Shown: piece after piece, positions 1,090 to 61,900 of the stretch | Numbering within the stretch: the stretch's first letter is position 1 | How the letters are laid out: each line of letters starts with the position of its first letter | NCBI RefSeq assembly: GCF_003675855.1 | Contig: NZ_RCIH01000001.1 | Coordinates: 558,001 to 622,000, forward strand | Length of the DNA stretch: 64,000 nt | Direction: 5' to 3' | DNA from: Halostella salina | GTDB lineage: Archaea; Halobacteriota; Halobacteria; Halobacteriales; Natronoarchaeaceae | Position numbers and translations under genes: made by a program | Notes under the pieces: generated by a model | What the model saw: only the letters and a program-made list of their open reading frames with translations | Database searches by the model: none | Told to the model about the DNA's origin: nothing

Positions 1090-1162
1090 GGGCCGGTGGG
1101 GTAGCTTGGTATCCTTCGGCCTTCGGGTGGCCGTAACCGCGATTCGAATTCGCGCCGGCCCA
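1090..1162 (+). tRNA. tRNA-Pro (anticodon CGG)
   Basis: A full cloverleaf can be drawn. The 7-bp acceptor stem is GGGCCGG at 1090-1096 with CCGGCCC at 1155-1161, followed by discriminator A at 1162. The anticodon stem is CGGCC/GGCCG with loop TTCGGGT and anticodon CGG at 1124-1126; the G after the anticodon is typical of proline tRNAs. The T-arm has a 5-bp stem and loop TTCGAAT. No CCA is encoded. The gene has no intron in this copy. Its last bases form the left attachment site of the integrative element, and integration leaves the tRNA sequence intact. Confidence 0.95.
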
Positions 1163-1165
1163 CTT
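1140..1165 (+). other. attL: tRNA-Pro 3' end, left boundary of integrated element
   Basis: Bases 1140-1165 cover the T-loop, the 3' T-stem, the 3' acceptor strand and three bases beyond. They are repeated without mismatch at 20772-20797, just beyond the integrase gene. Target duplication of a tRNA 3' end next to a tyrosine integrase is the usual footprint of an archaeal integrative element. Confidence 0.85.
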
Positions 1166-43309: not shown

Positions 43310-43999
43310 TTACGATTCGACCGCCCGCTCGAACCCGCGGAGGATACCCCGGCCGTCCGTGCCGCCCACGTCGGGGAGCGTCGCTCGCTCGGGGTGGGGC
43401 ATCATCACGGCGACGGTGTCGCGCTCGCCGAGGACGCCGGCGACCGCGTGCTTGGAGCCGTTGGGGTTTGCGGCCTCGGTCACCTCGCCGTCGGCGTCGC
43501 AGTACCGGAAGAGGACGCGTCCCTCGATCTCGAGCTCCGTCAGGCGCACGTCGTTGGCCTCGTAGCGCCCCTCGCCGTGGGCGATGGGGACCTCGATCAC
43601 CTCGCCCTGCTCGTAGGCGGCGGTCCAGGGCGTGTCGGCGTTCTCGACGCGCAGGTGGACGTGCTCGCACTGGAACCGCGCGCTCCGGTTCGTGGTGAAC
43701 GCCCCCTCGGTCAGCCCGGACTCGCAGCCGACCTGCGCGCCGTTGCAGACGCCGAGCACGGGGACGCCGTCGGCGGCGGCCTCGCGGACCTCCTCGACGA
43801 CCGGGGACTGCGCGGCCATCGCGCCGGCCCGCAGGTAGTCGCCGTAGGAGAAGCCGCCCGGGAGGACGACGCCCGTCGTGTCCTCGGGGAGGCCGTCCTC
43901 GTGCCACACGATCTCCGCGTCGATGTCGAGATGGGCGAGCGCGCGCTCGGCGTCGCGGTCGCAGTTGGAGCCGCCGAATCTGACGATAGCCACGGTCAC
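43310..43999 (-). CDS. purQ: Phosphoribosylformylglycinamidine synthase subunit PurQ
   Basis: The protein is 229 residues from a GTG at 43999 (reads MTVAIVRFGGSNCD); a GTG nine bases upstream is in frame. The glutaminase triad is visible: C in GVCNGAQVG near residue 83, and H and E in MPHPER near the end. PurQ frees ammonia from glutamine for PurL in the fourth step of purine synthesis. PurS is encoded just upstream; PurL is not in the window. The start of the gene forms one arm of the 53-bp tandem repeat. Confidence 0.93.
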   Translation of the reverse strand: MTVAIVRFGGSNCDRDAERALAHLDIDAEIVWHEDGLPEDTTGVVLPGGFSYGDYLRAGAMAAQSPVVEEVREAAADGVPVLGVCNGAQVGCESGLTEGAFTTNRSARFQCEHVHLRVENADTPWTAAYEQGEVIEVPIAHGEGRYEANDVRLTELEIEGRVLFRYCDADGEVTEAANPNGSKHAVAGVLGERDTVAVMMPHPERATLPDVGGTDGRGILRGFERAVES

Positions 44000-44095
44000 A
44001 GCGACCACCTCGTGTGGGAACCGAGCGTGGCTATCGTCGTGGCCACGGTCACAGCGACCACCTCGTGTGGGAATCGAGCGTGGCTATCGTCGTGG
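43990..44095. repeat. 53-bp tandem duplication with inverted arms at the 5' end of purQ
   Basis: Bases 43990-44042 and 44043-44095 are identical except for one C/T. Each unit starts with CCACGGTCACAGCGACCACC and ends with GAGCGTGGCTATCGTCGTGG. GACGATAGCCACG at 43982-43994, inside the purQ start, is inverted as CGTGGCTATCGTC near 44026-44038 and 44079-44091, so the message can fold in two alternative hairpins over its start codon. Confidence 0.8.
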
Positions 44096-61429: not shown

Positions 61430-61450
61430 CCCGCGTTCGAGTCGGAGAAT

Positions 61451-61837
61451 GTGAGGGAAGGGATTCGAACCACGCGAAGACGGATCTGCTCGCTGCGCTC
61501 GCAGGTTGCGACTTCTCTGCTTCGAATCCCTACATACCGACTTCACGCTCCTCACGTCCGTTCGTAGCGAGAAGTGCGAGGGAAGGGATTCGAACCACGT
61601 CCGAGAACCCGCGCCTGCGGCGCGGAACCTCGGTCTAGTTCGAACCCCTCCGAAGATTGTTGCCGCTCACGGACGTGTTCGCGGCAGCAATGCGAGGGAA
61701 GGGATTCGAACCGCGTGAAGACGGACCTGCTTGCTCCGCTCGCAGGTTGCGACTTCTCTGCTTCGAATCCCTACATACCGACTTCACGCTCCTCACGTCC
61801 GTTCGTCGCGAGAAGTGCGAGGGAAGGGATTCGAACC
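61451..61837 (-). repeat. Tandem array of tRNA-Leu 3' fragments (units of 125, 116 and 125 bp)
   Basis: The 21-base 3' end of tRNA-Leu (its acceptor and T-arm strand) occurs at 61451-61471, 61576-61596, 61692-61712 and, as part of the real gene, at 61817-61837. Units one and three are nearly identical over their whole length; unit two differs. Each unit holds inverted halves (GGGATTCGAA with TTCGAATCCC) and small hairpins, one with a GAGCGCAGCGA loop on the minus strand. The interval 61430-61815 has no other feature; plus-strand frames through it are artefacts. Confidence 0.8.
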
Positions 61838-61900
61838 CTCGGACCCCTACGGGAGCGGGTCTTAAGCCCGCCGCCTTTGGCCTAGCTCAGCCACCCTCGC
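61816..61900 (-). tRNA. tRNA-Leu (anticodon TAA)
   Basis: On the minus strand the acceptor GCGAGGG (61900-61894) pairs with CCCTCGC (61823-61817), followed by discriminator A. The anticodon stem is GCGGG/CCCGC with loop CTTAAGA, anticodon TAA. A long variable arm (CCC-GTA-GGG) makes it class II, as expected for leucine. The T-loop is TTCGAAT. No CCA is encoded. The 3' end faces the tandem array. Confidence 0.95.

Follow-up and report, generated by a model that had tools for sequence, protein, structure and literature searches.

Non-coding cassettes closed by tRNA 3' ends form a family across the Halobacteria

The nearest known case to the repeats described here is found at tyrT/tyrV of Escherichia coli, the 178-bp repeats associated with RttR RNA and Tpr. 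In E. coli K-12 (NC_000913, 1285200-1288200), each 178-bp unit is closed by AATCCTTCCCCCACCACCA and holds an inverted GGGGAAGGAT, and a further copy of the tRNA 3' end is present between tyrT and tyrV. As in Halobacteria, tandem units stand directly behind the tRNA and each ends in the tRNA 3' end (19 nt in E. coli), and between successive direct copies there are GC-rich hairpins and the tRNA end in inverted form. Unlike the haloarchaeal units, which in Halostella salina occur behind about half of all tRNAs, the E. coli repeats are confined to one locus; they also encode CCA, which the haloarchaeal units do not, and their tRNA copy begins later in the T-loop. The genes tpr and rttR are annotated in E. 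coli. We found no homology to either, as an Rfam scan of 20 haloarchaeal loci returned only tRNA and one ribosomal (L4) leader, and no Tpr-like ORF was identified in the array of the window, by which we mean the whole 64-kb stretch of Halostella salina DNA under analysis.

Within the haloarchaea, elements integrated by XerC/D-type integrases likewise generate direct repeats of a tRNA 3' end with a left edge of the T-loop type (PMC7921747, PMC3119063, PMC8371274). Our units share with them a tRNA 3' end duplicated from the T-loop onward, variable occupancy and empty sites, and differ in having no integrase and no genes, in being only ~120 bp long and stacked, and in carrying an inverted tRNA segment and two hairpins. 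The main text of a report on Haloferax gibbonsii places partial tRNAs directly adjacent to full copies, without describing a unit organisation, hairpins, an inverted copy or a spread through the class (PMC7921747). The SMR/PATE repeats of Haloquadratum are also gene-free, palindromic and ~110 bp long, and SMR-A insert into palindromes, but SMRs target IS605-type/PATE ends rather than tRNAs and have terminal inverted repeats and no target duplication (PMC3119063). In the open-access literature we found no account of the present units as a family, only partial tRNAs mentioned in passing, and since our search covered open-access papers only, their novelty is provisional. In integrons, tandem cassettes are each closed by attC, a folded imperfect palindrome with strand asymmetry. 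Tandem arrangement and folded, strand-biased sites make this a likeness by analogy only, as the haloarchaeal units mostly contain no genes and their repeated sites are tRNA ends. A CRISPR array was also considered and rejected, the interiors of the units being structured modules that are shared between loci.

The array in the window lies on the minus strand, between a tRNA-Leu(UAA) gene (61815..61900, called by ARAGORN and RF00005) and a convergent ORF, whose translation we take to resemble a CPBP/CAAX protease. We use T for tRNA positions 53-73, T' for an inverted copy of the T-loop/T-stem, and HP1 and HP2 for two hairpins. The T of tRNA-Leu(UAA) itself (61816-61836) is the last 21 nt of the tRNA, GTTCGAATCCCTTCCCTCGCA, and the same sequence closes each of three units that follow on this strand, the final copy with a single change (CTCACA for CTCGCA). 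Unit 1 (61691..61815; type A, 125 bp) is composed of HP1 (61773-61815), T' (61762-61772), HP2 (61712-61761) and a T copy (61691-61711). Unit 2 (61575..61690; type B, 116 bp) has the same parts at 61652-61690, 61638-61651, 61596-61637 and 61575-61595, and unit 3 (61450..61574; type A', 125 bp) at 61532-61574, 61521-61531, 61471-61520 and 61450-61470. The units were delimited from the sequence by repeats and inverted repeats, with a fold z-score as further evidence for T'-HP2-T of unit 2.

An earlier note on this DNA had reported four tandem copies of the tRNA-Leu 3' end, and these are real. The sequence GGTTCGAATCCCTTCCCTCGCA is exact at 61816-61837 (inside the tRNA), 61691-61712 and 61575-61596 and has one mismatch at 61450-61471; with up to three mismatches allowed it gives four matches in the window and none in 100 dinucleotide shuffles. 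The alternation and A-B-A order claimed for the array are borne out by start-to-start distances of 125, 116 and 125 and by units 1 and 3, which are 95% identical across 149 nt at a distance of 241, while unit 2 is different. Inverted tRNA halves are present as described, in the form of an 11-nt T', AGGGATTCGAA, in both units 1 and 3 and a 14-nt version with one indel in unit 2. So are the hairpins, clearest for T'-HP2-T of unit 2 (fold z = -5.2, against about -2.2 for units 1 and 3). We identified no gene within the interval, in agreement with its description as gene-free, and the ORFs that cross it are only mechanical overlaps. The parallel unit proposed at the tRNA-Pro of the window (1090-1163) was not confirmed: the first 4 kb contain no second copy of that 3' end at up to six mismatches.

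As derived from 165 units of 61 genomes, the units follow one constant plan: T, HP1, inverted T', HP2, T. The cassette HP1-T'-HP2-T starts exactly after tRNA position 73; across positions 53 to 73, the tRNA and the first unit behind it have an identity of 0.96-1.00 throughout. The left edge of T is sharp, with identity at 0.76 for the preceding base and mostly at background farther out; to the right, identity first drops to 0.67, then declines gradually to background. T' was detected in 140 of the 165 units (2 after shuffling); its sequence is complementary to positions 54-63 of T and matches the unit's own tRNA more closely than it does others. Directly behind position 73 comes HP1, which has a median length of 43 nt and often opens on T-rich sequence; the median for HP2 is 42 nt. 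Decay is greater in the copy most distant from the tRNA than in the proximal copies, which fits the entry of new units beside the tRNA but may also reflect an edge effect of unequal exchange.

The array is not peculiar to tRNA-Leu(UAA) but comprises three members of a Halobacteria-wide family of non-coding tRNA-end cassettes. In the H. salina genome, 20-22 of ~45 tRNAs, the range being set by the number of mismatches permitted, carry one to three units, each with the 3' end of that very tRNA, and the same search in nine family members placed units behind further tRNAs as well. Units closed by other tRNAs, which the earlier note had suggested looking for, are found at many tRNAs, with lengths of ~100-165 bp. 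Among 391 genomes from the class, 188 match a pattern of three T-loops at unit spacing and none matches the reversed pattern; the few matches elsewhere in the phylum, judged from the matched letters, resemble mostly tandem tRNAs or a CRISPR array. Where a unit follows tRNA-Leu(UAA) in a named genome record (16 records), the organism is always one of the Halobacteria; Haloarcula vallismortis and Halosimplex carlsbadense are examples. A covariance model built from the HP2 alignment has matches in 75 of 79 Halobacteria and in 0 of ~307 other genomes of the phylum, both denominators being counts from a genome listing. Nearly all strong matches of this model in H. salina lie directly behind tRNAs; the exceptions include a tRNA-Tyr copy 1.7 kb away and a match behind an aspS-like gene, described below.

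Unit number changes readily between relatives. Fixation in all relatives, which the earlier note had named as contrary to its proposal, is not what is seen at tRNA-Leu(UAA), where nine family members have from zero to three units (3, 1, 2, 1, 2, 1, 0, 0 and 0). The variable number and empty sites that it had anticipated are seen within one genus at the orthologous tRNA-Asp locus, where flanks are ~94-98% identical and there are no units (L121, L123, L127 and L137, the last without the downstream landmark), one unit (L113-L120) or more (L122, L124, L126 and L128). In the closest pair, flanks of 98.4 and 96.8% identity enclose 519 bp in one genome and 178 bp in the other. At empty sites the trailer after the tRNA resembles the one otherwise found after the last T.

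The modules within units are also exchanged. At tRNA-Asp one HP2 occurs with different HP1s, and the reverse. Among unit pairs at 85% identity or above, 20 share both hairpins, 106 share HP1 only and 169 share HP2 only, and in 112 pairs at this threshold HP2 is common to different tRNAs. In one such pair all 42 nt of HP2 are identical, and the T' and T of each unit correspond to its own tRNA. In 35 cross-tRNA pairs of equal length, both ends of the identical stretch fall within the T-loop core. The HP2 of L025 is inverted, and identical neighbouring units occur at L083 and L110. HP2 might have been an insertion into a T'-T palindrome, an idea for which we found no support: T' and T adjoin directly in 16 of 381 genomes, in two cases near tRNAs. 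As a separate observation, tRNA-Tyr remnants in another genome (G006:C1 near 2234000) have hairpins inserted just before the T-loop and include part of the tRNA 5' side.

Several properties of the hairpins depend on the strand. HP1 folds better in sense than in antisense (101 vs 37), as does T'-HP2-T (108 vs 29), and the GARC..GYGAG loop favours the sense strand, in 87 units against 3 and 81 against 1. RNAalifold finds double, compensatory changes in 7 of 16 pairs of the HP2 alignment. Strand bias and compensatory change together argue for a role of the hairpins as RNA or sense single strand. The loop motif was tried as a marker of tRNAs only and abandoned, with 215 genome matches, many far from tRNAs, compared to 133 when the motif is reversed. 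In sense orientation 3' of an aspS-like (aspartyl-tRNA synthetase) gene there is also an HP2-like hairpin that has no T copies (G000:C5:232982-233048), and here the same hairpin is possibly employed behind an mRNA.

We propose a model, to which we assign a probability of about 0.5, where non-coding tRNA-end cassettes are gained, lost and shuffled by T-loop recombination and their hairpins are kept as RNA or sense single-stranded DNA. Crossovers would occur within the T-loop core (TTCRAAT) of T and T', and the agent may be a site-specific recombinase of the tRNA T-loop attachment-site type or recombination at short repeats; this step draws on comparisons between species, not strains. The T-loop is a known attachment-site class of tyrosine recombinases (PMC8371274). 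The left edge of T would be the crossover mark, and the right edge a limit imposed through selection by tRNA function; that T starts at the T-loop and ends where tRNA function ends fits such an origin. What keeps the hairpins in place may be transcription of the units as the trailer of the tRNA: HP1 would then serve as a trailer or terminator hairpin, and T' would pair with the T that follows, enclosing HP2. In a fold test of T' as a lock that would prevent pairing between the tRNA and the extra 3' end, the model strongly favoured the far strand both with and without T', possibly an artefact of multiloop energy.

Unequal recombination between direct copies can explain the changes in number, the A-B-A order and the shuffling within a locus, with no special enzyme. 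For HP2 to move among tRNAs with different T, exchange has to take place in a short core, and this is our chief argument that something more specific is involved. Against a dedicated enzyme, no recombinase could be tied to the arrays, and viral contigs gave no strong match. It is tempting to speculate that haloarchaeal tRNA T-loops serve a dedicated cassette system, in which folded T/T' sites are the substrate of a recombinase that takes up, inverts, swaps and deletes gene-free hairpin cassettes, rarely with genes, at up to half of the tRNA genes, a similar process having made the E. coli tyrT repeats; we regard this extension as quite unlikely.

The units could instead owe their existence to RNA function first, as structured tRNA trailers (terminators, processing or stability elements) under selection, with ordinary repeat turnover by homologous recombination and no mobility. 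Such an origin would account for the sense bias of folding and loops, the compensatory changes in HP2 and the hairpin behind the aspS-like gene, and HP1 mostly opens with a T-rich stretch, T stretches and hairpins being known to end transcription in Haloferax volcanii (PMC7237163). Roughly half of the tRNAs have no units, however, and at one and the same tRNA sister species can be without them; no individual unit can therefore be indispensable, and selection on trailers leaves both the repetition of exactly positions 53-73 and the transfer of HP2 between tRNAs unexplained; we consider it unlikely. Simple tandem duplication of a tRNA end with its trailer, also without mobility, would yield near copies such as units 1 and 3 and the identical neighbours seen at two other loci. 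The sharing of HP2 across tRNAs speaks against this as a complete explanation, as does a T' that is inverted and matched to each host tRNA, and we judge it very improbable.

Two further explanations invoke integration. The earlier note had likened the array to stacked non-coding satellites that use tRNA attachment sites; read in this way, tiny non-autonomous units would circularise and, with the help of an integrase provided in trans, integrate at a tRNA 3' end. What stands of this is that gene-free units are stacked on tRNA 3' ends, vary in number and leave empty sites, with direct repeats that begin at the T-loop, a recognized attachment site as noted above, and with distal copies more decayed, as expected from entry next to the tRNA. 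What finds no support is an indivisible element with a helper. HP1 and HP2 reassort, and the same HP2 is found at tRNAs with differing T, which is not expected from integration at an identical core. No integrase gene was seen near the array (the genome has 10 integrase-domain ORFs, the nearest on the contig ~42 kb away). Viral contigs gave no strict pattern match, and the 46 with a loose match reach at most 27 bits when scored by the HP2 model, a value exceeded by nearly all of the matches listed for two Halobacteria genomes, which go up to 81. Phage and plasmid collections returned tRNA-like matches and tRNA arrays on haloarchaeal megaplasmids. DNA circles of ~120 bp are, moreover, hard to bend, and altogether satellites of this kind seem improbable. 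The units might also be scars of decayed integrated elements, each T copy being the distal end of an element that once carried genes and has since lost its interior. Haloarchaeal integrated elements do duplicate tRNA 3' ends (PMC7921747, PMC3119063), and H. salina has two gene-bearing stretches between T copies, at tRNA-Tyr (1.7 kb) and tRNA-Leu(UAG) (1.4 kb). Apart from these two, no T copy marking the end of a large element was seen up to ~15 kb behind the tRNAs examined. T copies in this range of the H. salina genome occur almost only at unit spacing, and the anatomy is constant with a conserved structure model; we think scars very improbable.

Returning to recombination at the T-loop, a structured, fast-changing repeat family lies 3' of about half of the H. 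salina tRNA genes and throughout most of the Halobacteria sampled. If its units move by T-loop recombination, tRNA genes would host a gene-free cassette system. If the units act as RNA, haloarchaeal tRNA trailers would carry a conserved structured RNA that had no Rfam match in the loci scanned. The E. coli tyrT repeats have the plan in common with these units, so processes of a similar kind may be at work in two domains of life.

Some additional features were recorded in passing. The gene-bearing stretch at tRNA-Tyr (G000:C4:325365-327158) contains a gene for a 349-aa protein, resembling an F420-dependent luciferase-like oxidoreductase, between two copies of the tRNA-Tyr 3' end and flanked by unit parts. 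At G000:C3 near 335574-337029, ~1.37 kb with a possible nuclease-like gene separates tRNA-Leu(UAG) from a copy of its 3' end, which is preceded by an HP2-like right arm. On the 5' side of tRNA-Leu(UAA) in the window is a 111-aa ferredoxin-like gene; in three congeners (G001, G003 and G004) this gene is ~7 kb from the tRNA, and no units are present there. Elsewhere in the window, a 53-bp tandem duplication (43989-44095, 98% matching) falls in possible coding sequence, and 1705-1742 contains six perfect tandem copies of GCTTCG.
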